A DNA stretch of 64,000 bases, taken from Anaerolineaceae bacterium (lineage in GTDB: Bacteria; Chloroflexota; Anaerolineae; Anaerolineales; Anaerolineaceae). Shown here piece by piece: positions 40,198 to 63,992 of this stretch (within the stretch, counting starts at the first letter, position 1; every line of letters starts with the position of its first letter). The position numbers and the translations under genes were made by a program. The notes beneath the pieces are model-generated. The model worked only from the letters and a program-made list of their open reading frames with translations, was not told where the DNA came from and searched no databases. Where the stretch lies: contig DUMZ01000008.1 in NCBI GenBank assembly GCA_012839565.1, positions 62,001 through 126,000 on the forward strand. Direction: 5' to 3'.

Positions 40198-40283
40198 CGA
40201 CTAAACGAAAAAGAAATTTTAGAAAAGTCGCTTTACAAATAGAAAAAGTTCGACTATACTAAAAAGCGATTTTAGAACAGTCG
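40198..40283 (+). promoter_or_regulatory. Promoter with two 33-bp inverted-repeat elements upstream of the ATPase at 40296
   Basis: CGACTAAACGAAAAAGAAATTTTAGAAAAGTCG (40198-40230) and CGACTATACTAAAAAGCGATTTTAGAACAGTCG (40251-40283), 28/33 identical, with TTTACA-N17-TATACT between and overlapping them. Confidence 0.75.
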
Positions 40284-40295
40284 AAAAGAGGCGAT

Positions 40296-41516
40296 ATGTA
40301 TATTCGAAGAGCGATTGAACCTGTCATCCAAAAGATGATAAATACTTTTAAAGTAGTACTTCTCACCGGCGCCCGCCAAGTGGGTAAATCGACAACTTTA
40401 AATCAAATGTTCACAAACCAGGATTATGAATATGTCAGTCTTGATGATTTTAATGAATTACAAATAGCTAAGAACAATCCCAAGGCTTTTTTTCTGAACC
40501 ATCCAGGAAAATTGATTATTGATGAGATACAATATGCGCCTCAATTGTTTCGTGAAATAAAGCTTAGGGTAGATAAAACCCAGGACTATGGACAATATAT
40601 ATTAACAGGCTCTCAAACCTATTCATTGATGCAAGGTGTTACCGAGAGTTTGGCAGGTCGGGTTGGAATTGCTCATTTAGATGGTTTGTCACTGCGAGAA
40701 ATATTACAAGATTCCTTCAATCAACCAATGGTTCCAAACGAAACTTTCATTCAGGCAAACCGTAAAGCTTTGCATGGCAGGGATTTATGGCAAGCAATAC
40801 ATCGGGGCAGTTTACCTGAGTTAACAAAGCTTAAAGAGCTGGATGGTGACCAGTATTATGCATCCTACCTAAGCACTTATATTGAAAGAGACGTGCGTTC
40901 GATTACGAACATACAGGATTTATCTTTGTTTAGCAATTTTATGCGTGTTATCGCGGCGCGGGTAAGCCAAGAAGTGAATTATGCTGATATGGCGAGCGTG
41001 CTGGGTGTCAGTGCGCCTACTGTGAAAGCCTGGATGTCAGTGTTGGAAGCATCCGGTTTGATTGTTTTGATTCAACCTTTCTCAAATAATCAACTATCCC
41101 GGGTTATTAAGCGTCCGAAACTCTATTTTATGGACACCGGATTAGTGGCATACCTTGGCCGATGGCTAAATCCGGAAAATTTGATGATGGGAGCAATGTC
41201 TGGCGCTGTTTTGGAGAATTTTGCGGTGAGCGAAATTATTAAATCTTTCCATAACGCTGGAAAGATTCATCCACCGGTTACTTTCTACAGGGATAAAGAC
41301 AGGCGTGAGGTGGATTTGATTATTGAAGACTCTGGTGTTCTGTATCCAATTGAAATTAAACAAACCGCATCGCCTAATCCGGGTATGGCAAGACACTTCA
41401 GCTTACTTGAAAAAGCGCAAGGATACACTGTGGGTAATCAAATAATTTTATGCCAAATTGACAAGAAGCGTTATTTAAGCGAAAACTTGATCGCCTATCC
41501 AGTTGGCGCAATTTAA
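40296..41516 (+). CDS. AAA ATPase with DUF4143-type C-terminal domain
   Basis: Walker A LTGARQVGKST, Walker B LIIDEIQYAPQLF, internal HTH-like segment, C-terminal REVDLIIEDSGVLYPIEIKQT. Confidence 0.9.
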   Translation: MYIRRAIEPVIQKMINTFKVVLLTGARQVGKSTTLNQMFTNQDYEYVSLDDFNELQIAKNNPKAFFLNHPGKLIIDEIQYAPQLFREIKLRVDKTQDYGQYILTGSQTYSLMQGVTESLAGRVGIAHLDGLSLREILQDSFNQPMVPNETFIQANRKALHGRDLWQAIHRGSLPELTKLKELDGDQYYASYLSTYIERDVRSITNIQDLSLFSNFMRVIAARVSQEVNYADMASVLGVSAPTVKAWMSVLEASGLIVLIQPFSNNQLSRVIKRPKLYFMDTGLVAYLGRWLNPENLMMGAMSGAVLENFAVSEIIKSFHNAGKIHPPVTFYRDKDRREVDLIIEDSGVLYPIEIKQTASPNPGMARHFSLLEKAQGYTVGNQIILCQIDKKRYLSENLIAYPVGAI

Positions 41517-41554
41517 AAAGCCTAATAATCAATTCTCAGAAATGCAAATAAAAA

Positions 41555-42010
41555 TTACGCCGGGAAGATTAGCCAGATTAGAATCGCAAACACAATACCA
41601 AAGAGCAAGCCGATAAGGGCTTCGGCTGGCGAGTGACCGATAACTTCGCGCAGGAATTTGACTTCATCCTCGGGCAGGTTGCGGTGGGCCAAAGCCTCGC
41701 GAATGATGGTGTTAATGCGTTCGGCGTGCAAGCCGGCTTGTCTGCGCACACCGGTGGCGTCGTAAACCACAATCATGGTTGCTGCCACACCCAGGAAGAA
41801 GGTCGGATGGTCCCAGCCATGATAAAGTCCAATTGAGGTCGTTACCGCGCTCATCAGAGCAGAGTGCGACGAAGGCATACTGCCGGAACTGATGATTAGC
41901 GACCAGTCCCATTTCTTGTGGCGCAAGTAGTGGATGGGTGTTTTTATAAGCTGCGCCAAAATCAGCGCGCCGAAAGCGGATAAAGCGATAGGGCTTCTGA
42001 AAAAACTCAT
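41555..42010 (-). CDS. Divergent PAP2 family protein (YuiD-like)
   Basis: SSGSMPSSHSALMSAVTTSIGL, VVYDATGVRRQAGLHAERIN, IGHSPAEALIGLLFGI. Confidence 0.9.
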   Translation of the reverse strand: MSFFRSPIALSAFGALILAQLIKTPIHYLRHKKWDWSLIISSGSMPSSHSALMSAVTTSIGLYHGWDHPTFFLGVAATMIVVYDATGVRRQAGLHAERINTIIREALAHRNLPEDEVKFLREVIGHSPAEALIGLLFGIVFAILIWLIFPA

Positions 42011-42013
42011 GGT

Positions 42014-42235
42014 TTAGTCAGCGGGGCTTTCGTTGAGTTCAGTTTCGCTTAAAGTGCTCACGCGCAGTCGGGCGCTTTCCAAAATCTGCGCGCAGAGTTT
42101 GCTAAGGCGTTTGCCTTCTTCGTAAAGCTTGATGGCTTCTTCAAGGGGCAAATCGGCGTTTTCAAGCTTGCTGATTACGTCCTGGAGTTGTGCAAAACTG
42201 CTTTCAAAGCTTTGGGTGGGGTCAGTTTTCGTCAT
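42014..42235 (-). CDS. xseB: Exodeoxyribonuclease VII small subunit
   Basis: SFESSFAQLQDVISKLENADLPLEEAIKLYEEGKRLSKLCAQIL. Confidence 0.94.
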   Translation of the reverse strand: MTKTDPTQSFESSFAQLQDVISKLENADLPLEEAIKLYEEGKRLSKLCAQILESARLRVSTLSETELNESPAD

Positions 42236-43484
42236 AATTATTCTCTCTTTTGATGTCAGTCACTTCGGCGTAAAAAGTGCCGTCAAGAATTTGTACTCTA
42301 ATAGGCAGGGTTGGTTCGATTTGGGCGATATGTTTGACCACTTTGCCGGTAGATGGATCGCTGATAATGGCGTAACCGCGTGCCAGGACTGCCATGGGGC
42401 TCAAGGCTTTAAGGTGGGCGCTTTCTTTTTCAAGGCGCAGTTCAAGGTTTTGCAGTTGGGCTGTCATGGCGCGGTCAAGACGGGCAAAAAGCTCATCCTG
42501 GCGTTGCAGGGTGTTGTAGATGCGTTGGCGGGGTGATACTCTTTCGAGCGCGCTTTGGACGAGTTGAAACTTTTGTTGGTGCATCGTAAAAATCGCTGAC
42601 AGGGATTGCTCAAGGCGGGCGCTTCTATCAGCAAGGTTTTGGAGCAAATCATCAACAGTTACCGGGCTGGCAAGTTCTGCCGCTGCGGTTGGCGTGGGCG
42701 CGCGCAGGTCGGCTACAAAGTCAGCGATGGTAAAGTCGGTTTCGTGGCCAACGCCGGAAATGACAGGTACGCGTGAATTGAAAATAGCGTATGCCAGTGC
42801 TTCATCGTTAAAACACCATAAATCTTCAATTGAGCCACCGCCACGACCAAGTAAAATGACATCCAGGTCTTTAATGCGGTTTAGCGCGTTGAGCGCGCGA
42901 ATGATTGACGCGGGCGCGTCCGCACCCTGAACAGTGCTAGGCGCGATGGTAACGCGGGCGGTGGGCAGACGCCGGTCAAGCGCGTGAAGCATGTCTTGCA
43001 GGGCAGCGCCGGTGGCGGAGCTGACGATGCCGATATGGTGCGGGAAACGCGGGAGGGGCTTTTTCTTGTCAAAAAGTCCGGCTGCCTGAAGCTTGGCTTT
43101 TAGCTTTAAAAACTCCGCGTAGAGTTGTCCCTGACCAGCCTGGCGCATTTCGCTGACGTAAAGCTGAACCTGCCCGGTAGCGGAATAGATGCTCATTGAG
43201 CCATGCACTTCAACCGCCATGCCTTCGCGCGGGTCAAAACGCAGGCCAAAGGTTGAGCCTTTCCACATGACGCATTTCACTTGCGCGTCGGCATCTTTGA
43301 GTGTGAAATAAAGATGTCCGGAACTGGCGCGGGTGAAATTCGAAATTTCGCCCTTGACCCAAATATCGCGCAAAACCTCGTCTGTTTCGAGTAATTCGCG
43401 CAGATAACTGTTGAGCGCTTTCACAGTCATGATGGCAGGTTGAAGGTCTTCGAAGTCAAACATGATGATAGTAGTATAATTCAA
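42222..43484 (-). CDS. xseA: Exodeoxyribonuclease VII large subunit
   Basis: KGEISNFTRASSGHLYFTLKDADAQVKCVMW; RGGGSIEDLWCFNDEALAYAI. Confidence 0.96.
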   Translation of the reverse strand: MNYTTIIMFDFEDLQPAIMTVKALNSYLRELLETDEVLRDIWVKGEISNFTRASSGHLYFTLKDADAQVKCVMWKGSTFGLRFDPREGMAVEVHGSMSIYSATGQVQLYVSEMRQAGQGQLYAEFLKLKAKLQAAGLFDKKKPLPRFPHHIGIVSSATGAALQDMLHALDRRLPTARVTIAPSTVQGADAPASIIRALNALNRIKDLDVILLGRGGGSIEDLWCFNDEALAYAIFNSRVPVISGVGHETDFTIADFVADLRAPTPTAAAELASPVTVDDLLQNLADRSARLEQSLSAIFTMHQQKFQLVQSALERVSPRQRIYNTLQRQDELFARLDRAMTAQLQNLELRLEKESAHLKALSPMAVLARGYAIISDPSTGKVVKHIAQIEPTLPIRVQILDGTFYAEVTDIKRENNYDEN

Positions 43485-43529
43485 AAAGCGATGAAAGATA
43501 ACAATAAGTTCTGAAAGAAAGTGAGGTGC

Positions 43530-44198
43530 ATGATGAAAAACATTACAAAACTGGTCCTTCTAACTTTGACTTTATCCTTGCTTTTGGCTGGGTGTAATTT
43601 GGGAGGGAATCAAACGCAATCAGATGAACTTATCCAAGCGATTGCGGATTATGCTGTAAAACTTACTGTTCAGGCCAGTGAAATTGACTTGCTCAAACAG
43701 GCACTGACCGAAAGCCCGGACGCTTGCCCCACGTGTGTGGTTTGCCCAACAACAACGCCTTGCCCGGTCAACACACCGTGTCCGGTTTGTCCCACTGTGG
43801 CACCTGAACCTACGCCGACCGCGACTAAAGGGATTCCTGTTGGCACAGCGAGTATTTCAGGTAAATTAATTTATCCATCGGATCATATCCCTCCACAACG
43901 GGTTATTGCCTTCGAAGTCAAAACAGGCTATTACTATTGGGTGCGTACAGCTACAGGAAATGCCAGTTACACCATTTCAAACTTGCCAGCGGGTACTTAT
44001 AAGGTTGTTAGCTATAAAATAAGCGAGAGTCCAACTGGGCTTAAGGCCGGTTATACACCTTTCGCGGCATGTAATTTTACTTGCGCGGAGGACCATAGCT
44101 TAATCGAGTTTGAACTAAAAGAAGGTGAACACAAAACGGGCATTGATCCGATTGACTGGTATGCGCCAGAAGATGTAGATTGGCCTGATGAACCATAA
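43530..44198 (+). CDS. Lipoprotein with Cys-Pro-rich linker
   Basis: Lipobox LLAGC; DACPTCVVCPTTTPCPVNTPCPVCPTVAPEPTPTA; C-terminal beta-rich region. Confidence 0.8.
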   Translation: MMKNITKLVLLTLTLSLLLAGCNLGGNQTQSDELIQAIADYAVKLTVQASEIDLLKQALTESPDACPTCVVCPTTTPCPVNTPCPVCPTVAPEPTPTATKGIPVGTASISGKLIYPSDHIPPQRVIAFEVKTGYYYWVRTATGNASYTISNLPAGTYKVVSYKISESPTGLKAGYTPFAACNFTCAEDHSLIEFELKEGEHKTGIDPIDWYAPEDVDWPDEP

Positions 44199-44220
44199 AA
44201 CTAAAATGATTTAAAAAGAA

Positions 44221-46059
44221 ATGAGTTCTAAAAAAACGCTTTTTCTTCAAATTACGCTGATTCTTTTGCTTCTGCTACCGACGCTGACTGCTTGCGAAAA
44301 CGGACAAAGCAAAGCTGAGGACTTTATTGTGTCGGTTCAAATGCCTCAGCGCGGTCTTTCGCAGGGGCAAAACTTTGTGCTGACCCTGACCCTGCAGAAC
44401 AACAGTATAAAGAATAAGGATGTCGAATCGATTATCTTGCCTGCTACGTTTATCAAAGGGGTGAACGCGTTCAACACGCAGCCAGCTATGCCACGTGGCA
44501 TTAATAGCAACGGCGATTGGGTCTTTGAATATGAGCGAACTATCGCGCCCCAAGGCCTTGAACAGGTCGCTTTTTACTTTGAAACCGCGCCAACGGGTCA
44601 TTTTGAAGCGACAGGCGTGGTGAATACGTCCGAGCGTTCCTATGAATTTGCGCTTGGTTTAACAGTGCTCGGCGTTAATCCTGCAGACTGGTCACCAGCC
44701 GCGGCAAAACCCATTTTCGACGATGCTGTTTATGAGCCACCGTACCTAAGTGTCGTCAAAATTGACGCTTTTGCTGAACAAGACGGACAACGAACGCAGG
44801 TCTGGAGCGGTAACGGAGCGATTATCAGTTCAGATGGGCTCATTTTAACCAGCGCTGATGTGGTGCTTTCGGACCGTTATTTTCAGCTCACCGACTTGCT
44901 TGTTTCTTTGACCGTTGATGCCGAAGCCCCACCTGTTCCCAGCTATCGTGCCAGCATCGTGCAGGCTGATGCCAAGCTGGGACTGGCAATCATCAAGCCA
45001 CGCGAAACTCTGGATGGAAAAGCTATCGACTACAGCTTGCTTGACTTGCCCGTCTTAGCGCTGGGCGATTCGCGAGTCCTGGAGCAAGACGCTGAATTAC
45101 GGGTAACAGGTTACCCACAGGCTCCCAACACATCAGAGCTGATGAGCGAAAGAAATTTACGACTCAATGACTTCGGCGCGGAACTTCCCTTTGGCGAAGG
45201 ATCACTCTGGCATGCTGATAGAGCGATTGAAGCCGGCTATCTTGGCGCGCCTGTGCTAAACGAAGCCGGCGAACTGGTGGCTGTGCCGATCCATAAATCG
45301 CCGATCACTTTTGACCCGCGCACAGTAACGTGTGAGCCTGTTGTGGATGACAATCGCGATGGACGGATTGACGCGCTTGACCCCTGCCCGAGAACGAGTC
45401 TGCCGATTGACACCCTGCGACCCATTCACCTGGCTCAGGAAATGATTGACGCTGCCAGGCGGGGCGAGATAAGTATTACGATGGCTAGAATCGCGCAACC
45501 TTTAAGCCATACGCCAGTAAAACTGCTTGACACGGATGATTTTTCAAACAATCGCAATCAATGGAAAATCACCGGGAATGACTTTGGCAAGCAAAAGATT
45601 GAAGATGGTGCCTATCTGATTAAGGTACATAAGCCGATGACACAGCTTTGGTCATCAGTGGGCTATGGCTATGATCAGCCCATGCAAATTGACGTGGAGG
45701 CGCGCGTGACTGCGCCGGTGTATAATAGCGAATTTGGCGTGATTTGTGGCCTGACTGAGACCGAGCGCACCGTTTTCGCGGTGAGTGAGAATGGTTATTT
45801 CGCGATTTGGAAAGTGCAAAATGACGCCATGCATTATTTGCAGGACTGGCGCTACGGAGGTTTTGACGCTGAGCAAACGCTAAATCTTTCAGTGCAATGT
45901 GGGCAGGGCTGGTATCAGTTTGCCGTTAATCAGCGTGTGTTGGCGCAGGGCACGGACCCCGATTTTACGTCTGGACTAACGGGTTTATATGTAGCCAGTT
46001 ATGACAAGGGTGGTTTGACGGTTCATTTCGATAATTTCAGCGTTTCTATCATCGAGTAA
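44221..46059 (+). CDS. Lipoprotein with trypsin-like (apparently inactive) domain and C-terminal LamG/DUF1080-like domain
   Basis: Lipobox TAC; GNGAIISSDGLILTSADVV resembles the HtrA-type core; C-terminal DDFSNNRNQWKITGNDFGKQKIEDGAYLI. Confidence 0.75.
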   Translation: MSSKKTLFLQITLILLLLLPTLTACENGQSKAEDFIVSVQMPQRGLSQGQNFVLTLTLQNNSIKNKDVESIILPATFIKGVNAFNTQPAMPRGINSNGDWVFEYERTIAPQGLEQVAFYFETAPTGHFEATGVVNTSERSYEFALGLTVLGVNPADWSPAAAKPIFDDAVYEPPYLSVVKIDAFAEQDGQRTQVWSGNGAIISSDGLILTSADVVLSDRYFQLTDLLVSLTVDAEAPPVPSYRASIVQADAKLGLAIIKPRETLDGKAIDYSLLDLPVLALGDSRVLEQDAELRVTGYPQAPNTSELMSERNLRLNDFGAELPFGEGSLWHADRAIEAGYLGAPVLNEAGELVAVPIHKSPITFDPRTVTCEPVVDDNRDGRIDALDPCPRTSLPIDTLRPIHLAQEMIDAARRGEISITMARIAQPLSHTPVKLLDTDDFSNNRNQWKITGNDFGKQKIEDGAYLIKVHKPMTQLWSSVGYGYDQPMQIDVEARVTAPVYNSEFGVICGLTETERTVFAVSENGYFAIWKVQNDAMHYLQDWRYGGFDAEQTLNLSVQCGQGWYQFAVNQRVLAQGTDPDFTSGLTGLYVASYDKGGLTVHFDNFSVSIIE

Positions 46060-46064
46060 AAGAA

Positions 46065-46089
46065 AAACCCCCGCTTATCACGGGGGTTT
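46065..46089. terminator. Bidirectional terminator between convergent genes
   Basis: AAACCCCCG-CTTATCA-CGGGGGTTT. Confidence 0.8.
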
Positions 46090-46106
46090 AAGGAGAAAGG
46101 TAATGT

Positions 46107-47906
46107 CTAAAGCGCGATGTAGCGTTCAATCATCGGCTTTAGCGTATCCAGTGAACTCTTCCAGAAGGCTTTATCGCGGATATTGATGCCAAAGCGGGCA
46201 GCCAGGTCGGCAGCGTTGGCTTCGCCGGTGCTTGCCAGGAGCGCTTTGTAATCTTCCAGGAAAGCATCGCCTTTTTCGAGATAAATCGCGTACAAACCTT
46301 TACCAAACAGCGTGCCAAAGGCGTAGGGGAAGTTGTAGAAGGAAAGGTGAGCGCTGTAGTAATGTGGTTTCCAGGTCCAGGCGTATTTGTTCATCACTTC
46401 AGGGTCAATGCCGTCACCGTAAGTATCGCGTTGCGCTTGCAGCATGATTTCTGAGATATCATCAGCTGGGATGGTGCCTTTTTCGCGTCGGATAAAGACT
46501 TCCATCTCAAACAGATAGCGCGACATGATATCCACGATGGTTTGCGCGTCGCTGGCGATTGCGGTTTCAAGCAGTATCAATTCTTCTTCCGGTGATGAAG
46601 GATTTTTTAGCAGGGCGGTGAGAACAATCGTTTCGCACATGATGGATGCGGTTTCGGCGAGCGTCATGGGCGTTCTGGACTGGAAAGGTGTTTTGCCAGC
46701 TTGATAGATGCAATAGTTATGGAAAGCGTGTCCAAGTTCGTGGGCAAGGGTCATGACCTGGTCAAACGAGCCGTCAAAGTTGCTCATGATGCGACTTTCT
46801 TTCACCACGGGTATGCCCATACAGAAAGCGCCACCGCGTTTTCCAGCGCGTTGTTCAGCGTCAATCCAGTTGCTTTCAAAAGCGGTTTGGGCCAGTTTTG
46901 CCAGTTCGGGTGAAAACTTTGCAAAGTTTTCCAAAATGAGTTCTTTGGCTTCAGTAAATGAATAAGTCTTGTTGGCTGAACCAACCGGCGCGAAAAGACT
47001 CCACCAGGGCAGCTTGTCGTGGCCCAGCTTTTTGGCTTTGGCGCGGAAGTAGTCGCGGAACATGGGCAGGGAGTCTTGCATGGCACCCATCATGGCATCC
47101 AGCGTTTCGCGGTCGATACGTGCCATGTCCAGCGCGCTGTGTAGGGCGTCCTGGCGTCCACGTCGGCGGTTGAGCACGTTCACTTCGCCCTTGATGCCGT
47201 TCATACAAGCGGCAAGGGGCTCTTTCATCTCTTCAAAGACTTGCATTTCCAGCTTGTAAGCGCGTTCGCGGGTGTCGGCGTCGGGGTGACTGCGCAGGTT
47301 GATGAGTGCGGGCAAAGGCAGGGTCTGCATTTTGCCATCCAGTTCAAATTCAACACTCTTTTGTGAGGTCAACACGCCTTGCAAATTGTCCCAGGCACTG
47401 CTGGCAGAAAGGCTGAGTTCGTTGGCCAGTTCTTCTTCGGCTTCGCTCATCATATAGCGGCTTTGTTCAGCTTCTTCAAGCAAGGCAAAGCTGTGTTCAT
47501 GCGCCGAGCCAGGATATTGCAAGGCTTTGGGCAGACGGTCGCCCAGTTTGCCCAGCCAGGCGGAGATGCGGTTGCTCAGATTGCCGAGTGGCAGCATCTC
47601 GATTTGGACCTTGGAGTATAACTGCTCGGCTGTTTTGTTGAACGAGTCAACGCTAAGCGTCGCGCCCAAAAAAGCGCCTATTTTATTGCCAACAAGGCTA
47701 ACTGTGTTGCGGGTATCAACAATTTGGTTAAGCAACTGGCTTAGGGCTTCATCGCTGATATCAGAACTTAAAGCGGGTTCAAGCTTGGTTTCGTAAATTG
47801 CGGTGAGCTCCGCAGCAATAGTTTTGATGTAATTAATGTCTTCAACGAGTTGTGGGTCGTCAAGACCAGTATAAATGTTAGAAAGATCCCATCGGGTTGG
47901 TGTCAT
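46107..47906 (-). CDS. pepF: Oligoendopeptidase F (M3 family)
   Basis: TLAHELGHAFHNYCIYQAGKTPFQSRTPMTLAETASIMCE; 599 aa. Confidence 0.94.
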   Translation of the reverse strand: MTPTRWDLSNIYTGLDDPQLVEDINYIKTIAAELTAIYETKLEPALSSDISDEALSQLLNQIVDTRNTVSLVGNKIGAFLGATLSVDSFNKTAEQLYSKVQIEMLPLGNLSNRISAWLGKLGDRLPKALQYPGSAHEHSFALLEEAEQSRYMMSEAEEELANELSLSASSAWDNLQGVLTSQKSVEFELDGKMQTLPLPALINLRSHPDADTRERAYKLEMQVFEEMKEPLAACMNGIKGEVNVLNRRRGRQDALHSALDMARIDRETLDAMMGAMQDSLPMFRDYFRAKAKKLGHDKLPWWSLFAPVGSANKTYSFTEAKELILENFAKFSPELAKLAQTAFESNWIDAEQRAGKRGGAFCMGIPVVKESRIMSNFDGSFDQVMTLAHELGHAFHNYCIYQAGKTPFQSRTPMTLAETASIMCETIVLTALLKNPSSPEEELILLETAIASDAQTIVDIMSRYLFEMEVFIRREKGTIPADDISEIMLQAQRDTYGDGIDPEVMNKYAWTWKPHYYSAHLSFYNFPYAFGTLFGKGLYAIYLEKGDAFLEDYKALLASTGEANAADLAARFGINIRDKAFWKSSLDTLKPMIERYIAL

Positions 47907-48005
47907 AGTCTGCTCCTGTTCGTGTTAGATAATTGTATTATACCGTGTTCTTTAGAGATAACTTGCCTGCTGTGCAAAATCAGCTTAAAAACGGTGGGTA
48001 AAAAA

Positions 48006-48037
48006 CACCGCTCCTGTCTCTAAAGACAGGAGCGGTG
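48006..48037 (-). terminator. Intrinsic terminator for the 48070..48759 gene
   Basis: CACCGCTCCTGTCT-CTAA-AGACAGGAGCGGTG with a T-run on the minus strand. Confidence 0.85.
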
Positions 48038-48069
48038 GATCTTGCATCAAGTTTTGTTCAAGGCAAATC

Positions 48070-48759
48070 TTATCTGCGGCGTCTGCCACTGATCAAAGAC
48101 ACATAATAGAGCAATTGCAGAACTGAGGTCACCAAGCCAGCCACGTAAGTCCAGGCCGCGGCATTGAGCACCTTATTGACGCCTTTGCGTTCTTCATCGC
48201 TGGTCATCAGCTGGCTTTCTTCAAGCATGACTTTGGCGCGTTTTGACGCGTCCAGTTCAATGGGCAAAGTAACCAGTGAGAATACGGTCGTGCTGGCAAA
48301 CAAGATAATACCGATAGTCGCCAGTCCGAGCAAGTTCAGCACCAGTCCGATGATAACCAAAATCATGCCAACGTTGGAGCCGATATTGACAACGGGCACG
48401 AGTACACGGCGTAGTTTCATCGGACCATAATTGTCGCGGTCTTGCGCGGCGTGTCCGAGTTCATGCGCGGTAATTGCCATGGCTGCCACAGAGGGCACAG
48501 CACCAACGTTTTGTGAGAGTGCCAGGGTTTTACTCCTGGGATCGTAATGGTCGCTGAGTGTGCCTTGCGTTTGCGTAAAGCTTATTTCATCAAGATTGTA
48601 ACGGGATTTGAGATAGTCGGCGACCTGGAGACCGGTCAGGTTACGTGTGTTGCGCACCTGGCTCCATTTCTTGTAGGCTGAATTTACCGCGATACTGGCA
48701 ATTATCGACAGTACCAGGCCTGGCAAAATAAAGATAAAGTAAGTTGGACTAAAAGGCAT
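48070..48759 (-). CDS. Zinc metallopeptidase, YugP family
   Basis: AAMAITAHELGHAAQDRDNYGPMKLR; TM segments. Confidence 0.92.
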   Translation of the reverse strand: MPFSPTYFIFILPGLVLSIIASIAVNSAYKKWSQVRNTRNLTGLQVADYLKSRYNLDEISFTQTQGTLSDHYDPRSKTLALSQNVGAVPSVAAMAITAHELGHAAQDRDNYGPMKLRRVLVPVVNIGSNVGMILVIIGLVLNLLGLATIGIILFASTTVFSLVTLPIELDASKRAKVMLEESQLMTSDEERKGVNKVLNAAAWTYVAGLVTSVLQLLYYVSLISGRRRR

Positions 48760-48785
48760 CTTGGTTTATCCTTTCAAAGCGGGCT

Positions 48786-50153
48786 TTATTTATTGAAGTA
48801 TTCAATGGCAGCATCGCGTTGCGGGTCAATGCCGGCTTCAAAGTCAGCTTCGGTGTAGGGCACTTCAATATCAGGAGTGAGACCTATTTCAGCAATCTGA
48901 TTTCCATCAGGGGTCAACCAACGCGCGATGGTAATGCGCACGCCACCCTGGTTATCAGAAAGGTCTATCCAGCTTTGTACCGAGCCTTTACCATAGCTCA
49001 CTTCGCCGATGAGTTTCGCGCGGCCGTGGTCTTGCAGCGCGCCGGCAACGATTTCGGAAGCGGAAGCAGAGCCACCGTTAATTAAAACCACCATGGGAAT
49101 GTTGGGGGCAATAGCGTCACCTTCAGCCCGGTAGGTATCGCGGGTGCCATCGCCATATTCTTCGTAAAGGATAACGCCATCCTCGATAAACATGGCGGAA
49201 ATATCAATGGCAGCATAAAGATAACCACCGCCGTTATCGCGCAGGTCAAAGATGAGTCCCTTGGGATTTTGTGCCATGAGCTCATTCAACGCGTTTGAAA
49301 CTTGCTCTACGGCTTTATCGTTGAAGGTGTATAGCGCGATGTAGGCAATATCGTTTTCAAGCATTTCGTAATCAACGACTGGTATTTCTATTACCCGGCG
49401 TGTAATACTAACATCAAAGATTTCATCACCACGGCGAATGGTTAATACAACCACTTCACCCGCGGGGCCAAGAATCGATTGCAGAACGATATCGCCGGCG
49501 GTTCCGGTTACATCTTCGCCATTTACAGCGATGATGATATCTTTGGGCTTGAGTCCGGCTTCTTCAGCGGGGGAGCCTTTCATGGGGGAAACGATTTCAA
49601 CATACTCTCCGGAAGTGTTCACCCAGGCGCCGATGCCTGTGTAAGAGCCTTCCATTTCGGCGTTGGCTTGTTCATAAGTGTGGGGGTCCATGTAGGATGT
49701 GTGTTTGTCGCCGGTTGCAGCTAACATACCCTGAATGGCACCACGCATCAGTTCAACATCGTCCAGGGGCTGATCCACGTAGTATCTGTGCAGATAATTC
49801 CAGCTTTCCCAGAAAGGCTTAAAGAGCGTTTGTAACTCGCGTGGGGTTGACGAGCTGACGTACTCAGAACACTTGCCAGCATCCGCGCCAAATTGAATGG
49901 CGGGGCAGGGGTCGCATTCGAGTCCTTCAGTTACACCATCACCATCAGGACAAAGGCAGGCAGGACACGGGTCAGAAACACCAACAGTATTGCCAAGTTT
50001 GTCGTAACCCAAGGCGATGCGGATGGGATTGAATTTCACAAGGCTGGCCGTGGCTACGCCAGCACCATAGGATGTGACAACGATGAGCACAATTAAGATT
50101 ACTGTTAATATTGTGCGATTTGATTTGTTTTGCATGCATACCTCCAAAGTCAA
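48786..50153 (-). CDS. S41 family C-terminal processing peptidase (CtpA/Prc-like) with PDZ domain
   Basis: KPKDIIIAVNGEDVTG (PDZ); DLRDNGGG; NGGSASASEIVAGALQDHGRAKLIGEVSYGKGSVQ. Confidence 0.95.
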   Translation of the reverse strand: MTLEVCMQNKSNRTILTVILIVLIVVTSYGAGVATASLVKFNPIRIALGYDKLGNTVGVSDPCPACLCPDGDGVTEGLECDPCPAIQFGADAGKCSEYVSSSTPRELQTLFKPFWESWNYLHRYYVDQPLDDVELMRGAIQGMLAATGDKHTSYMDPHTYEQANAEMEGSYTGIGAWVNTSGEYVEIVSPMKGSPAEEAGLKPKDIIIAVNGEDVTGTAGDIVLQSILGPAGEVVVLTIRRGDEIFDVSITRRVIEIPVVDYEMLENDIAYIALYTFNDKAVEQVSNALNELMAQNPKGLIFDLRDNGGGYLYAAIDISAMFIEDGVILYEEYGDGTRDTYRAEGDAIAPNIPMVVLINGGSASASEIVAGALQDHGRAKLIGEVSYGKGSVQSWIDLSDNQGGVRITIARWLTPDGNQIAEIGLTPDIEVPYTEADFEAGIDPQRDAAIEYFNK

Positions 50154-50285
50154 CTTGCCTGAGCAAGTCGCTCATATACAGACCTTAAGAATACCATACT
50201 CGGACTGTTTTCACCGCTGGCTTTAGCGGATTAAACGGAAATTATACAAAAATTAAACACATCAGGTGTAACAAAAGAGATGAAT

Positions 50286-50942
50286 TTAATAAGGTGTTTT
50301 GTTCAAATATTCGGGCAAGTGGATGAGATGACTGATGTACGGATGGTCGCCATCGGGTTCGGGCTTAACCTGGAGGGTATGAATACCTAACTGACGGGCG
50401 GTGTCCAAATTGATGCTGCGGTCATCGAGAAACAGGCAATGTTCCGGCTTGGGGTTACCGATCAGATTTAGCGCGATTTGGTAGCTTTCCTTTTCTGGCT
50501 TACAATAAGGCGCGGTGGCAACGACGTCGATAATGTCCACAAACAAGTCGCGCAGGTTCATCAGTCCCAAAACATTTTCCGCGTGGGCGACACTGGCATT
50601 GGTGTAAATCCATTTGGGCTGGGGCAGACTTTCGAGCGCTTTGCGCAGGGCGGGATCTGGTGCCATATAATCCGAAAGGTCCACGGAATGTACCCAGTTG
50701 AGATAGTCGTGCATATCAACACCCCGTTCAACCTGCAAGCCTCGCAAGGTCGTGCCGTATTGCACAAAAAGGCGGTGTTGCAGTTCAGCCGTTTCTTCAA
50801 GGGGAACCCCTAAAACTTCGTGTATATAGCTTTGAATGCGTTCCATAAACAGGGGCCAAATGTTGAGCGAACTGGGATAAACGGTGTCGTCAAGGTCAAT
50901 AAGCAGGATAGAAATTTGGTTCATCATGTGCGGTCTAACCAC
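50286..50942 (-). CDS. HAD-superfamily pyrimidine 5'-nucleotidase-like hydrolase
   Basis: LLIDLDDTVYPSSLNIW...WIYTNASVAHAENVL...FLDDRSINLDTARQLGI. Confidence 0.9.
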   Translation of the reverse strand: MVRPHMMNQISILLIDLDDTVYPSSLNIWPLFMERIQSYIHEVLGVPLEETAELQHRLFVQYGTTLRGLQVERGVDMHDYLNWVHSVDLSDYMAPDPALRKALESLPQPKWIYTNASVAHAENVLGLMNLRDLFVDIIDVVATAPYCKPEKESYQIALNLIGNPKPEHCLFLDDRSINLDTARQLGIHTLQVKPEPDGDHPYISHLIHLPEYLNKTPY

Positions 50943-51517
50943 CTGTTCATATTTTGGGGCGGGGTGAATTCATCCAGTTTTTGCAGAAGGTCGATGGGCG
51001 TATCGGCGACGATAAAAAGCCCGCGGTGTTCCGGATAGATGTAACCCAGGGCGATGCTGTGTTCGACCATGCGCACGAAGGGATCAAAATAGCCTTCAAT
51101 ATTGAGCAGACCAACTGGTTTGGTGTGCAATCCGATTTGTGCCCAGGTGAGCGCTTCAACGGTTTCGTAATAGGTTCCGTATCCGCCCGGCAAGGCGATG
51201 ATGCCATCAGCCAGTTCGAGCATACGCTTTTGGCGGGTTTGGATATCCCTGACCGTTTCAAGTTTGGTCAAAGTGGCATGGATGAGATGTTCAAGGTTGA
51301 GCGCGTCGTTTACCACTCCTATGACCTCACCGTAGTTTTCGAGTACGCCATTGGCCACCGCGCCCATCAGTCCGGTTGAACCAGCGCCATAGATTAAAGT
51401 GCGGTTTTGCCTGGCGAGAGCTTCGCCAAGTTGCCAGGCGATTTGCATGTGGGTTTCGGGTAAACCATCTGCTGAGCCGGCAAAGACAGTGATGTTTTTA
51501 CGAAAGGTGGTTTTCAT
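50924..51517 (-). CDS. LOG-family TIGR00730 Rossmann fold protein
   Basis: IYGAGSTGLMGAVANGVLENYGEVIGV, RKRMLELADGIIALPGGYGTYYETVEALTWAQIG variant. Confidence 0.93.
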   Translation of the reverse strand: MKTTFRKNITVFAGSADGLPETHMQIAWQLGEALARQNRTLIYGAGSTGLMGAVANGVLENYGEVIGVVNDALNLEHLIHATLTKLETVRDIQTRQKRMLELADGIIALPGGYGTYYETVEALTWAQIGLHTKPVGLLNIEGYFDPFVRMVEHSIALGYIYPEHRGLFIVADTPIDLLQKLDEFTPPQNMNRWLDRT

Positions 51518-51533
51518 ACTGTTCTATTGTAGC

Positions 51534-52748
51534 CTATAAACTCTCTGTCTCCAGCAAGAATGTCAAAATGTGCATATGTTTTATGCCTTGTGTGCTGCGA
51601 TTGATCGGATCCATTGAGATGATATATTTCGGGTAGTTGTCTTTTATGTCCAGCAGGGGCGATATCTCGCGATTGAAGGTAGCTTCATCGTTCATGATAT
51701 AGCTAACTTGAACATAAAACTTTTTATCAGCTTTTTCCGCGACGAAATCAACTTCCTTTTCGCCAATTCTACCAACAGTTACATCAAAACCCCGTCTTAA
51801 TAGTTCCATAAAAACAATGTTTTCTAGAATGAGATGGATATCCCTAAAGTTTTCGCCATAAACCGCCTGACGTATGCCATGATCAGCAAGGTAATATTTT
51901 TCATCTATTTGCAGAATGCGCTTACCGCGTAAATCCTGTCGTTTTGCAGGATAAAACAAGCAAGCGTCCACAGTGGCTTTAATGTAGTTAATGACCGTTT
52001 CGGGCGCGACCGCGCGATATTCATTTTTTAAGTAGGCTGAAATGCTGCGGGCTGAAAATGGATTGCCGATGTTTGACATCAAAAACAGAATAACCCGTTG
52101 TAACAGGTCAACATCGCGGATATTGTGTCGGCTAACAATGTCCTTAACCACAACTGACGCGTAAAGATCTTTTAAATATTGTTTTGAAGGTTCCACGTCA
52201 AAGTCGAGATGATGCAAAAACGGCATTCCGCCAAGATTGATGTACAAATTAAAGGCGGCGTCTTTATCCAGCTTTAATGGTGTCAGTTCAAGTAATTGTT
52301 TGAACTCTAGAAATGAGAAGGGATAAATTTGAAATTCCACATATCGGCCAGCCAGGTAAGTTGCCAGTTCTCCGGATAGGAGCGAACTGTTGGAGCCGGT
52401 GATGTAAATATCGGAATCAAAGTCAACACGCAAGCTGTTAACGGCCCGTTCCCAATTTTGGACTTCCTGAATTTCATCCAGGAAAATGTAAACTTTTTTA
52501 TTGCGATCAAACGGTTGATTTTGAAGTTCGTGGATTAAGTCCTGATCGTCGCGGATATGCATGGCTTTTGCGGATTCAAAGTTGAGCGTGAAGATTTGAG
52601 AGGGCACAATACCTTGCATGATAAGGCGGTCCTGGATTTGTTCAAGCAAAACAGACTTTCCGCTTCTGCGCAATCCAGTAAGCACTTTTATAATCAGTTT
52701 GTCAATAAATGGGTCGATTTTTTTTAGATAGTTTTCTCGGATAATCAT
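51534..52748 (-). CDS. AAA ATPase with DUF4143-type C-terminal domain
   Basis: Walker A LTGLRRSGKSV, Walker B YIFLDEIQEVQNW, wHTH-like NPFSARSISAYLKNEYRAVAPETVINYIKA, C-terminal EKEVDFVAEKADKKFYVQVSY. Confidence 0.9.
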   Translation of the reverse strand: MIIRENYLKKIDPFIDKLIIKVLTGLRRSGKSVLLEQIQDRLIMQGIVPSQIFTLNFESAKAMHIRDDQDLIHELQNQPFDRNKKVYIFLDEIQEVQNWERAVNSLRVDFDSDIYITGSNSSLLSGELATYLAGRYVEFQIYPFSFLEFKQLLELTPLKLDKDAAFNLYINLGGMPFLHHLDFDVEPSKQYLKDLYASVVVKDIVSRHNIRDVDLLQRVILFLMSNIGNPFSARSISAYLKNEYRAVAPETVINYIKATVDACLFYPAKRQDLRGKRILQIDEKYYLADHGIRQAVYGENFRDIHLILENIVFMELLRRGFDVTVGRIGEKEVDFVAEKADKKFYVQVSYIMNDEATFNREISPLLDIKDNYPKYIISMDPINRSTQGIKHMHILTFLLETESL

Positions 52749-52763
52749 GACACACCTCGCTTG

Positions 52764-52859
52764 TGTCAGTTATAACTGACAAAATGAAAAAAATCAAGAA
52801 AGTGTCAGATATAACTGACAAAAAGCAGGAAATAAGAAATCTGTCAGTTATATCTGACA
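52764..52859. promoter_or_regulatory. Three palindromic operators at exact 39-bp spacing, upstream of the ATPase at 51534..52748
   Basis: TGTCAGTTATAACTGACA (52764), TGTCAGATATAACTGACA (52803), TGTCAGTTATATCTGACA (52842); minus-strand promoter TTGATT-N17-TATAAC with its -10 in the proximal palindrome. Confidence 0.85.
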
Positions 52860-52918
52860 GATTTCGCATGTTTGCACTCTAACAAGGCTGGTTTTAAACT
52901 TTAAATGCCCCACTGACC

Positions 52919-53911
52919 TTAGCTGTGATACTCATCGCGCAGGGCCTGGAGCTTGCTTTTCTCTGCCTGGCTAAGTGGTTTGGGCAAGTGTATTTGCACT
53001 TTGGCCAGGATATCGCCTTTTTGATCTGACTTGCGCAAGGAAGGCATGCCTAAGCCTTTGAGCCGAAAAGTTTTCCCGCTATCGGTTCCCGCTGGAATGT
53101 TGAGTTTAACGGGTTTCTCCATGGTGGGTACCGTCACCTCACCGCCCAGCGCGGCAGTATAAAAATCTACCGGAATTGTCAGCAGCAAGTTATTCCCTTT
53201 GCGGGTAAAAACTTTGTGCGGGAGCATTTTGATGAGCAAATACAGGTCCGCGCCATCGGCTTGACCACTCAGGCGTACTTTTGAACCGGTATCTACCCCA
53301 GCAGGGATGCTGGCATTAATCGTGCGTCCATCAGAGAACCTAAGGCTGCGTTGCGTGCCACGGTAGGCTTCTTCAAGGGTGATTTCAGTCTCATGTTCAA
53401 CATCACGTCGGGCGGGTGCCTGGGTACGGTAGCTGCGACCACCTTGTGAATAGCTGGTCTCTGTGCCCGGACTAAACCCACCACTAAAACCTCCGCCGAA
53501 CAGCGAGGTGAAAAAGTCAGAAAAGCCACCCATTCCACTAAAACTGCCCATACCACCGGGCATACCCATGCCGCCAAAAATTTCCTGAAACTCTTCGGGT
53601 GTCATCGTGCGGTAACCGCCGCCTTGTCCGGGTTGTTGTTGCCAGCGTCCCCAGTCAAAGCCACCCGGCTGGCCGCCCGCGCGTTGGTATTGTTGCCATT
53701 CCGAGCCTAAATTGTCGTATTTCTGGCGTTTTTCGCTGTCTGAAAGCACCTGGTAGGCTTCGTTGACTTCTTTAAACATCTCTTCGGCTTTTAGGTCTTT
53801 ATTCACGTCGGGGTGATATTTGCGCGCCAAATCGCGATAAGCTTTTTTTATCTCATCGTCAGTCGCGGTTTTAGAAACACCTAAAGTTTTGTAGTAATCT
53901 TTATATTCCAT
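52919..53911 (-). CDS. DnaJ/CbpA-type co-chaperone
   Basis: J domain [36 protein letters not shown] region; DnaJ C-terminal domain; no zinc-finger repeats. Confidence 0.95.
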
Positions 53912-54004
53912 ATTAATTCCATTGCTAATTCAAGCTATTATCATATTCATAATAGCAAATCAATGTATAAAGCGCGTTAATATCAAGCCAGCAAATGAGA
54001 GATC

Positions 54005-54706
54005 TTAGCCAAATTCTCCGCGCACTTCCGGCGGTAATAGAGCGGCGATTTGGCTCATGATTTCGTGCCGGGCGCGGTTGACATCATCTCTGGAGGGACG
54101 GTTGCCACCGTCAGCGATTTTCAGCGGGCCAAAAACTTTGCCGATTTTGGAAATGACGCGCGCTTTACGTTTTTTGTTGCGTATGGTGCCAAATATGTCC
54201 CAGTTATCTTCGCTATAGGTGCCGATGGCTAAAATGGGCACGCCCAGGCGAAGTGCTAAAAAGGCCGCGCCGGGCAAGGCTTCACGCAGGGGCGGTTTGT
54301 GCACATGACCTTCGGGCATAATCGCCAAAATGCCATCCTGTGCCAAAATGGCCTCCGCGGCACGAATAGCTTCCAGGTTGGCGGTGCCTTGCTGAATTTC
54401 AAGCGTTCGCCACAACCTTGGCAAAATCCTTAAGGCGACTGGCGCGTTTGGCATAACATGGTCCCCGATGAACTCCAAAGGATATTTGGTGCTGTGAATG
54501 GGGCTGATGGTGTCTAAAAAGTGGAAATGGTTGTTAACAATGAGCAATGGACCCTTTTCGGGCAGGTTTTCCTGGCCTTCAACTTTATAATTCAGCAAAA
54601 TTGAAGCCAGAAATGCGATCCCGTTTCGCAAGATGGCACGGCGGGTGCGAAATCGTGGATAGGGGTGTTTCTTTTGGTTTTCTTTGCGAAATTCTTTTCT
54701 TTTCAT
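54005..54706 (-). CDS. 1-acyl-sn-glycerol-3-phosphate acyltransferase (PlsC) family protein
   Basis: LLIVNNHFHFLDTISPIHS (NHxxxxD-like), IMPEGHVHKPPLREALPGAAFLALRLGVPILAIG; ATG at 54706 preferred over 54853. Confidence 0.87.
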   Translation of the reverse strand: MKRKEFRKENQKKHPYPRFRTRRAILRNGIAFLASILLNYKVEGQENLPEKGPLLIVNNHFHFLDTISPIHSTKYPLEFIGDHVMPNAPVALRILPRLWRTLEIQQGTANLEAIRAAEAILAQDGILAIMPEGHVHKPPLREALPGAAFLALRLGVPILAIGTYSEDNWDIFGTIRNKKRKARVISKIGKVFGPLKIADGGNRPSRDDVNRARHEIMSQIAALLPPEVRGEFG

Positions 54707-54806
54707 AGCAACCGTCCAGATGGGATGATACCTTATTTTACAATGATTAATGATTTTATGTGGAATTGTAAAAATGAATGTTCTGAAAGCAAATAACAGA
54801 AAAAGT

Positions 54807-54938
54807 TGAAGAAATGCACTTTTAGGGCACTTAAAATATTGAACAAATGACAATAATGTGCTAATATAATATTGAAAACATGACAGTTTATGGTATTAAA
54901 AACAATGAACAAATGCAGTGGTGTGGACTAAGCAAGGT
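54807..54938 (+). repeat. Four iteron-like repeats, 33-bp period, upstream of the ATPase at 54963
   Basis: Motif TGAAnAAATGnCA-like at 54807, 54840, 54873 and 54906 (TGAAGAAATGCA, TGAACAAATGACA, TGAAAACATGACA, TGAACAAATGCA); TTGAAC-N17-TAATAT promoter overlaps. Confidence 0.7.
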
Positions 54939-54962
54939 GGTGTTTACTGGAAAAGAGGCAAT

Positions 54963-56303
54963 ATGATGTACTTCAAAAGAAAAGCATATGATAGCTTACT
55001 AAAGTGGAAAAAAGAAGATGCAGATTCCTACAGCATTTTACTGGAAGGGCCAAGACGTGTCGGTAAATCCACTATTGTAGAAAGATTCGCGCGGAATGAA
55101 TATGCCGCGTCGATTATCATCGACTTTGCCAGTACCTCTGATGCGATAAAAGCCTGCTTTGATGATATCCATGATTTAGATATGTTCTTTTTAAGACTTC
55201 AGGCAGCTTCGGGGCAAACACTTGTAAAAGGTGATTCAGTTATTGTCTTCGATGAAATCCAATTGTTTCCTAAGGCACGACAAGCGATAAAGTATCTGGT
55301 TAAAGATGGTCGATATCACTATATTGAAACCGGGTCTTTGATATCAATAAAAAAGAATGTAAAAGACATTCTAATTCCGTCTGAGGAATTAAAGTTAAAA
55401 ATATATCCGATGGATTTCGAGGAGTTTTGCTGGGCGATTGACAGTAACGTTTTTGACCTAAGCAAAAAAGTCTTTGAAACTGGTAAACAAGTCGGACAGG
55501 AAATTAATCGGAAGTGGATGAGAGATTTTAGGATATATATGTCCGTGGGAGGAATGCCACAAGCTGTAGAAGCCTATTTGGCGGGGAAAAACATGGCGGA
55601 AATCGATAAGGTCAAAAGAACCATCATCGATCTTTACGAGGATGATTTTAAGAAAATAGATTCAAGTGGGAGATTGTCAGCTTTATATAGGTCTATACCA
55701 GCTCAGTTATCCAAAGATTACAAAAGATTTATCATATCTGAAGCAACTGGCAAGAGGAAAGGACCTGGGGACGATGAGTTGCTTTTCGATTTGGTTGATT
55801 CGAGAACAGTGCAAATTGCATACAACACGACTGATCCCGTTGTTAGCCTGGCGTTAACCAAATCGCTGGACAGCTACAAGTTATATCTGGCAGATACGGG
55901 CTTGTTTATCACGCTCATGTTTATTGACAGACCAGAAGTTGCCAATGAAATATACACGAAGTTGCTTTCGGATAAATTGCCAGCTAATTTAGGCTACCTT
56001 TATGAGAACGCAGTCGCACAGATGATAGCATCTACCGGACAGGAATTGTATTATCACACCTGGAATAAGGAAGGAAGCTCACATTACTATGAAATTGATT
56101 TTCTTGTTCCTGCCGGTTCTAAAATTAACGCGATAGAGGTAAAGTCATCGGGTACAGGCAAGCATGAATCGATGAAAAAATTTATCGCAAAGTACCGTCA
56201 AGTAGTGTCTAAAGCTTATATACTTTCTCAAAAGGACATAATGAAGAAGGACAATATCTCATTTCTGCCAATATATATGCTTAATTTTGTGCTCAATGAA
56301 TGA
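54963..56303 (+). CDS. AAA ATPase with DUF4143-type C-terminal domain
   Basis: Walker A LEGPRRVGKST, Walker B VIVFDEIQLFPKARQ, C-terminal HYYEIDFLVPAGSKINAIEVKSS; start moved from 54918 to 54963 (RBS AAAAGAGG). Confidence 0.9.
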   Translation: MMYFKRKAYDSLLKWKKEDADSYSILLEGPRRVGKSTIVERFARNEYAASIIIDFASTSDAIKACFDDIHDLDMFFLRLQAASGQTLVKGDSVIVFDEIQLFPKARQAIKYLVKDGRYHYIETGSLISIKKNVKDILIPSEELKLKIYPMDFEEFCWAIDSNVFDLSKKVFETGKQVGQEINRKWMRDFRIYMSVGGMPQAVEAYLAGKNMAEIDKVKRTIIDLYEDDFKKIDSSGRLSALYRSIPAQLSKDYKRFIISEATGKRKGPGDDELLFDLVDSRTVQIAYNTTDPVVSLALTKSLDSYKLYLADTGLFITLMFIDRPEVANEIYTKLLSDKLPANLGYLYENAVAQMIASTGQELYYHTWNKEGSSHYYEIDFLVPAGSKINAIEVKSSGTGKHESMKKFIAKYRQVVSKAYILSQKDIMKKDNISFLPIYMLNFVLNE

Positions 56304-61910: not shown

Positions 61911-63992
61911 ATTTCAATCCACGCCTCCACGCGGGAGGCGACTCGATATTCATCTGCTTTTTTACTCATCAACACATAGTTTCAATCCACGCCTCCACGC
62001 GGGAGGCGACGAAGCAAACAATGGCGTAATCCCTAACACGCTTGTTTCAATCCACGCCTCCACGCGGGAGGCGACGAAACCGCTTGGCATTGGTTTTGGT
62101 GGTGTATTAGTTTCAATCCACGCCTCCACGCGGGAGGCGACCTGACAGGTCTAAAATCAGTCGCGCTTATTACACGTTTCAATCCACGCCTCCACGCGGG
62201 AGGCGACGGATATAGACACACCGATAGCCACGCCTGACGGATGGTTTCAATCCACGCCTCCACGCGGGAGGCGACATAGACAGGGTGTTGAGCGATGAAT
62301 AACATCATTGTTTCAATCCACGCCTCCACGCGGGAGGCGACAAACCTGCGTGGTAATATCATCTTGTTTCTTTACTGGTTTCAATCCACGCCTCCACGCG
62401 GGAGGCGACTAACAACGATTTTAATCATATTGACGTGGCAACTGTTTCAATCCACGCCTCCACGCGGGAGGCGACCGTTACCGTGCCACCTACAACAAAT
62501 TGCGCTAATCCGTTTCAATCCACGCCTCCACGCGGGAGGCGACGCGATAAGATGCCCGTCTACTACCCGCAAATTTTTGTTTCAATCCACGCCTCCACGC
62601 GGGAGGCGACGCGCGTCATCGCCACCAGTTCATCAATCGTTGGCGCGTTTCAATCCACGCCTCCACGCGGGAGGCGACTTATCCATTTTACGAACTACAA
62701 TACAAGTTAACCGTTTCAATCCACGCCTCCACGCGGGAGGCGACATTAGTAGCACAGGAGTTATTTTGATGGATTGGTTGTTTCAATCCACGCCTCCACG
62801 CGGGAGGCGACTCGCGCTGGATCCAAACAACGGTTACAGTGGCGGTGTTTCAATCCACGCCTCCACGCGGGAGGCGACATTGACGTGGCAACTGAATATA
62901 GCATCAGTGCTGTTTCAATCCACGCCTCCACGCGGGAGGCGACTGGTGATATTCAGCTTTATGCTGAATTGTTACAAGTTTCAATCCACGCCTCCACGCG
63001 GGAGGCGACGGACCCGGTATCACCCTTGACATGGTGGACGTAACGGTTTCAATCCACGCCTCCACGCGGGAGGCGACGCGGAGATGAGGTAGCACATGGC
63101 GACAATAGCTGTTTCAATCCACGCCTCCACGCGGGAGGCGACATGACCAACGCGCTTATCCAGGGTGCTAACGACCAGGTTTCAATCCACGCCTCCACGC
63201 GGGAGGCGACGCCATGCAACAGAATTGCAAATGATTCACCACGTGTTTCAATCCACGCCTCCACGCGGGAGGCGACTGCCCCCGTACACCGTGTCACCCT
63301 CGCGCGTGATGTTTCAATCCACGCCTCCACGCGGGAGGCGACTGAGCGTGAGTTCATCGGCTCACCTTCCCAGCGGTTTCAATCCACGCCTCCACGCGGG
63401 AGGCGACAAATTGCCGTAAAGATAAGGGTCGGGCATGATGTTTCAATCCACGCCTCCACGCGGGAGGCGACATATCAAGAAGATATGCGAGTGGATTATT
63501 AGCTGTTTCAATCCACGCCTCCACGCGGGAGGCGACACGCTCTCGAACTCGTAGCTTGAGCCGTCTGCTGTTTCAATCCACGCCTCCACGCGGGAGGCGA
63601 CTCATCGGTCACATTATTTGACATATGCACGTTGTTTCAATCCACGCCTCCACGCGGGAGGCGACAATTCGGGTGACTTTCAAGCGGCACGGATAGCGGT
63701 TTCAATCCACGCCTCCACGCGGGAGGCGACCCAGTCATCTAAATCACCTTCACATCGTGGAAGTTTCAATCCACGCCTCCACGCGGGAGGCGACTGCAAT
63801 TCGGGTGACTTTCAAGCGGCACGGATAGCGGTTTCAATCCACGCCTCCACGCGGGAGGCGACGAGCGCGCGATATTTTTACGCTTGCTGATGCACCCGTT
63901 TCAATCCACGCCTCCACGCGGGAGGCGACTTGTGCGAGCTGCCACAGTCGGAAGACGATTGTTTCAATCCACGCCTCCACGCGGGAGGCGAC
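61911..63992 (-). CRISPR. Type I-C-like CRISPR array: 32 repeats of 32 bp, 31 complete spacers (31-36 nt), continuing past the window end
   Basis: Repeat GTTTCAATCCACGCCTCCACGCGGGAGGCGAC (reverse complement GTCGCCTCCCGCGTGGAGGCGTGGATTGAAAC, I-C consensus-like). First repeat starts with A instead of G. Orientation from repeat type and reconstructed PAM. Confidence 0.98.

Follow-up and report, generated by a model that had tools for sequence, protein, structure and literature searches.

Why do three related ATPase genes on one bacterial contig each carry a different set of evenly spaced repeats directly upstream, and what reads these repeats? The genes, here termed A, B and C, encode DUF4143-type AAA ATPases and lie within a 64,000-nucleotide stretch (hereafter the window) of an Anaerolineaceae bacterium (contig DUMZ01000008.1, assembly GCA_012839565.1, positions 62,001 to 126,000 of the forward strand). 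In our assessment, each gene and its upstream array probably form a self-contained autoregulatory unit, in which the ATPase reads a private operator over its own promoter. Direct computation shows the arrays together with their privacy and fixed spacing, how they covary with a helix of the protein, and the phasing of the -10 box in the gene-B subfamily.

As the initial annotation had described, each of the three genes is preceded by its own precisely phased repeats: two 33-mers, 85% identical and 53 bp apart, before gene A, three 18-bp palindromes with a step of 39 bp before gene B, and four TTGAAnAAATG-like direct repeats with a step of 33 bp before gene C.

40198-40230, plus strand: first operator copy of gene A, an imperfect palindrome of 33 bp, CGACTAAACGAAAAAGAAATTTTAGAAAAGTCG (repeat analysis; genome scan)
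40251-40283, plus strand: second operator copy of gene A, at 53 bp from the first and overlapping the -10 box (repeat analysis; genome scan)
52764-52781, minus strand: gene B operator, nearest copy, perfect palindrome TGTCAGTTATAACTGACA (repeat analysis; genome scan; footprint)
52803-52820, minus strand: middle operator copy of gene B, reading TGTCAGTTATATCTGACA on the minus strand (repeat analysis; genome scan; footprint)
52842-52859, minus strand: far operator copy of gene B, reading TGTCAGATATAACTGACA on the minus strand (repeat analysis; genome scan; footprint)
54806-54816, plus strand: gene C repeat 1, TTGAAGAAATG (repeat analysis)
54839-54849, plus strand: gene C repeat 2, TTGAACAAATG, 33 bp on (repeat analysis)
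54872-54882, plus strand: gene C repeat 3, TTGAAAACATG, 33 bp on (repeat analysis)
54905-54915, plus strand: gene C repeat 4, ATGAACAAATG, 33 bp on (repeat analysis)

When each 170-bp upstream region was compared with 300 Markov shuffles of itself, the repeat scores stood at z = 6.1 (A), 15.3 (B) and 5.9 (C), and no shuffle reached the observed score. The palindromes before gene B are near-invariant in three species, while the spacers between them differ. Together with its flanks (52836-52865), the far palindrome of gene B gives a 12-bp stem followed by T-rich sequence, and may double as the terminator of dnaJ.

Within a genome, the array sequence is private to each paralog in most testable cases. 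In genome scans allowing up to 3 mismatches, the gene B palindrome occurs three times, always before B, and the gene A 33-mer twice, both times before A; the palindrome of a Levilactobacillus relative is likewise found three times in its own genome, all before its gene. The score of an upstream region against itself exceeded the 95th percentile of between-paralog scores for 10 of 18 upstream regions in Oribacterium and for 7 of 13 in an archaeon. In Parabacteroides (locus L273, G301:C76:42700-47200), two near-identical DUF4143 ATPase genes stand in tandem and apparently carry the same array, with AGTCCCTTGAAAAAGTG units.

The arrays are a family trait within the order. DUF4143 genes, of which the window's genome has five, were present in 43 of the 101 genomes searched, this genome included; the loci of nearly all of them were fetched, and 93 upstream regions from the same order were usable. 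Direct repeats with z > 3 precede the ATPase in 51 of these 93, as against 9 of 101 upstream regions of other genes at the same loci, and direct or palindromic repeats are found in 70 of the 93 as against 21 of 91 downstream controls. Since direct repeats in the downstream controls (8/91) are near background, the arrays are one-sided. Many of them consist of direct repeats that form no hairpins. The 50 strong cases fall into spacing classes of 22/23 bp (15), 32-34 bp (15), 39-42 bp (13) and 53-70 bp (7), which group by clade on the protein tree. These spacings approximate whole numbers of helical turns, from two to six, so that the copies would be presented on nearly the same face of the DNA.

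Evenly spaced upstream repeats thus accompany homologs in the same order and, as described below, in other phyla, and the attempt to refute this through homologs lacking repeats, or through repeats maintained apart from the gene, did not succeed. One apparent exception in the genus, locus L092 of the related genome G010, was considered as a counter-example and rejected: its three B palindromes are intact and stay beside dnaJ, and an insertion with CRISPR-repeat sequence has moved them off the gene. The window itself has a CRISPR array at 61979-63862 (repeat GTTTCAATCCACGCCTCCACGCGGGAGGCGAC), and debris of a related repeat separates the operator from gene B in G010.

Beyond the order, relatives of gene B were scanned with one genome per species, giving 80 relatives from Firmicutes, Bacteroidota, Actinobacteria, Spirochaetes, Verrucomicrobia, archaea and others. 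Most of their upstream regions contain palindromes, typically with a TA|TA centre. When the scan set was extended by 30 further loci and 60 more stretches to 196 nonredundant genes, a second palindrome copy was found at 39, 40, 41 and 42 bp in 19, 36, 5 and 6 instances (66 altogether), whereas any other spacing between 15 and 79 bp had at most 3 instances (3 at 78 bp, which is twice the unit). The closest Firmicutes relatives keep the gene B word TCAGTTATAACTGA at a protein identity of 50-56%. Other subfamilies also carry arrays, such as those in Oribacterium (18 family matches) and an archaeon (20). The gene-B relatives are solitary, being arranged in an operon-like manner with the upstream gene in 0 of 60 cases and with the downstream gene in 1 of 59; two adjacent co-transcribed genes, as in a toxin-antitoxin pair, are not found.

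A reader of the arrays may be sought in the ATPases themselves. All three proteins pass the Pfam cut-offs for both AAA_14 and DUF4143, confirming their initial assignment, and match the PADLOC PDC-S01 models with E-values of 1e-92 to 1e-157 and near full-length coverage. Their features, including the winged helix-turn-helix (wHTH) and the predicted local distance difference test score (pLDDT) of the models, are as follows.

40296-41516, plus strand: gene A, AAA_14 + wHTH + PD-(D/E)xK (DUF4143) ATPase, PDC-S01 (Pfam, PADLOC, AlphaFold2 pLDDT 93.7)
41013-41051, plus strand: gene A predicted recognition helix, residues 240-252 (AlphaFold2 model; alignment against operator types)
41307-41360, plus strand: gene A intact nuclease motif E338xD340...E353xK355 (E338 and K355 invariant; D340 and E353 at least 90%)
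51534-52748, minus strand: gene B, AAA_14 + wHTH + DUF4143 ATPase, PDC-S01, nuclease motif altered (Pfam, PADLOC, AlphaFold2 pLDDT 94.2)
51966-52007, minus strand: gene B recognition helix region, residues 248-261 (covariation with the operator core; AlphaFold2 model)
51705-51755, minus strand: gene B altered nuclease motif E332xD334...Q347, lysine lost (alignment)
54963-56303, plus strand: gene C, AAA_14 + DUF4143 ATPase, PDC-S01, nuclease motif EID...EVK present (Pfam, PADLOC, alignment)

The AlphaFold2 model of gene B places helix 249-261 as the third helix of a winged HTH, followed by strands 265-287 (pLDDT 94), and the model of gene A has the same domain order. The HTH-like middle proposed for these two proteins is thus recovered as a wHTH in both models, and alignment alone adds for gene C a candidate HTH-like segment that occupies the same place among the domains. 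The PD-(D/E)xK C-terminus ascribed to all three is intact in A and, as judged by eye, present in C, but it is altered in B. This site appears altered rather than decayed, because E332, D334, Y345 and Q347 are invariant in 75 sequences from several phyla despite the loss of the lysine. In a fold search with gene B, the best match was the archaeal AAA+ protein SSO1545 (PDB 2FNA, E 1.7e-8), but with a TM-score of ~0.5 and 17% identity; Orc1/Cdc6 bound to origin DNA came next, and STAND proteins were also similar. A PDB sequence search returned no matches, NCBIfam gave two weak matches below cut-off and PHROGs gave none.

The repeat sequence covaries with this HTH, which the initial annotation had proposed to test. 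Operator half-sites and proteins of 120 gene-B relatives (effective number 61) were compared by mutual-information (MI) z, summed across the variable part of the operator core (positions 3-7, counted from its centre). Of the 393 columns of the protein alignment, that of residue 250, with which the predicted recognition helix begins, ranked first, residue 253 second and residue 248 fifth; a pairwise test correcting for overall identity again placed residue 250 first and residue 248 fifth, and residue 250 came first in four of five MI settings. By eye, E250 goes with CTGA/CTTA, D250 with TCGA and N250 with AGAA/TGAC/CCAT. A plain MI analysis of even-centre palindromes, without scoring of A-tracts or second copies, was noisy and dominated by the centre positions, and was replaced by better site calling. 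The gene A subfamily has a similar helix-operator trend, seen by eye in a smaller set; covariation supports the match between an operator and its own DNA-reading helix in the gene-B subfamily alone. As the operator sequence changes with the DNA-reading helix, each gene probably controls itself via a private lock and key.

The repeats were also said to overlap a sigma70 promoter in every case. This stands for gene A by consensus match.

40232-40260, plus strand: gene A promoter-like site TTTACA-17-TATACT, overlapping repeat 2 (consensus match only)

For gene B the consensus scan gave a weak site and for gene C none. Across the gene-B subfamily, the promoters score far above shuffles, 54 of 108 cases have their -10 box at a distance of 0-4 or 35-44 bp to the operator centre, which is on the array step, and the outer operator copies lie upstream of the predicted promoter.

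Several points weigh against autoregulation through private operators. The repeated operator over an own promoter is present, but the consensus scan supports a promoter only weakly for B and detects none for C; the gene C unit has two weak matches elsewhere in the genome and is thus not demonstrably unique; and about a quarter of the ATPase upstream regions in the order have neither a direct nor a palindromic repeat. As for the covariation, the ranking fails in the fifth MI setting, with clustering at 50% identity (effective number 22), where residue 250 falls to rank 18; columns 393 and 192, outside the HTH, also rank high; phylogeny was controlled only partly; and the operator site calls are noisy because the score that chose them rewards palindromes, A-tracts and second copies. 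The arrays could, moreover, activate instead of repress. Nevertheless, the initial proposal that different sequences in the same layout mark individually regulated, probably autoregulated units held in both the homolog repeat scan and the HTH covariation, and the binding of each ATPase to its own array is predicted with strong computational support.

In this reading, the protein combines an Orc/STAND-like AAA+ core, a winged HTH at the start of DUF4143 and a C-terminal PD-(D/E)xK nuclease fold. The N-terminal end of the recognition helix would read a private DNA word, of which two to six copies lie over the own promoter with a spacing fixed per subfamily. Oligomers of bound ATPase probably block the promoter and hold expression at a low level, so that the ATPase would repress itself. 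What releases or re-arms the complex may be an infection signal or the nucleotide state of the AAA+ core, and the nuclease-fold domain would serve as effector.

An unlikely alternative gives the array more than an operator function: it would let a one-gene immune or selfish unit recognise itself, with the ATPase inactive while on the array and freed when occupancy is lost or titrated. An infection that changes DNA copy number or degrades the chromosome would then free the ATPase to act via its nuclease fold, and diversifying words would insulate up to 20 units per cell. In Parabacteroides, the two near-identical tandem genes apparently share an array, which speaks against a strict exclusion between equal copies, and the selfishness of the unit is unproven.

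It is equally improbable that the gene is a selfish mobile cassette, with arrays as recognition ends or replication iterons, an ATPase/nuclease that moves the element and a merely secondary promoter overlap. The distribution is indeed patchy: the genes are present or absent at fixed sites, A or B being missing from the corresponding neighbourhoods in most genus members, where dnaJ adjoins LOG and DUF212 adjoins GNAT/MurJ with no ATPase, and G010 has A and B and is devoid of C. In addition, the family reaches 20 copies per genome, its relatives occur on 238 plasmids and in 19 phage records, and its fold is related to initiators. However, the arrays are one-sided, where a mobile element of this kind would have two-ended repeats, and they sit on the promoter with the -10 box in phase. 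The empty sites are too diverged for a target-site duplication to be resolved, and the divergence of G010 likewise prevents base-level borders from being set at an empty gene-C site.

Less likely again is that the arrays bind another regulator, either a host factor or a defence-island regulator, and that the ATPase is merely a regulated gene. On Acinetobacter plasmids (L418:2986-7203), a gene-B relative lies beside BREX genes encoding a WYL regulator, DUF1819, DUF1788 and brxC, and at least 80% of the stretch spanning the ATPase and BREX genes recurs in 112 plasmid records, a neighbourhood that also fits a defence setting but is no proof of one. A precedent is RptR, which represses a defence-island promoter via three direct repeats in that promoter (PMC12255303). 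The likeness lies in the repeats at a defence promoter; RptR is a separate small protein that acts on neighbouring genes, not a self-acting ATPase. Against an external regulator stand the privacy of the array in most testable paralogs, its covariation with the ATPase's own recognition helix, the word kept among gene-B Firmicutes relatives and the solitary position of the ATPase genes.

A role of the repeats in RNA, as leader structure, attenuator or terminator, is very unlikely: some palindromes, such as the far copy before gene B, fold as terminator-like hairpins, but many arrays contain none, the outer copies lie upstream of the predicted promoter and no Rfam family matched. Although the intergenic DNA has a high AT content and some of the repeats have little length, over-reading of chance or low-complexity sequence is refuted by the controls (z 5.9 to 15.3 in the window, the family-wide excess, the fixed spacing and the phylogenetic footprint) and has a negligible probability.

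The autoregulatory reading has parallels among origin proteins. DnaA and archaeal Orc1/Cdc6 (ORB boxes) have an AAA+ core and an HTH and bind repeated boxes, which are often situated at or close to the gene of the protein itself; one or a few such proteins are present per cell. The family described here differs in having many distinct units per genome, a nuclease fold and ordinary chromosomal sites.

The defence-like class suggested at first agrees with the PADLOC result, in which all three proteins are PDC-S01, an unvalidated candidate; their defence role is accordingly a candidate one only, and unproven. PDC-S01, an ATPase fused to a PD-(D/E)xK domain, is described in the available text of PMC12988326 as the fourth most common prokaryotic defence system, for which about 29,500 members are counted in bacteria and 10,000 in archaea, and validation is said to be pending for most PDCs. 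That text gives counts and trees for the family to which A, B and C belong, without operators or autoregulation. A search of the literature available to the analysis returned no functional study for DUF4143 or COG1373, no established mechanism for PDC-S01 and no earlier description of upstream operators or autoregulation for this ATPase family.

With these results, PDC-S01 gains a testable handle in the form of a predicted DNA target for many members and, in the gene-B subfamily, a readable recognition code at residues 248, 250 and 253. Private operators offer an explanation for the coexistence of many paralogs without cross-talk, and the family provides a large natural collection of protein-operator pairs that appear to be distinct.

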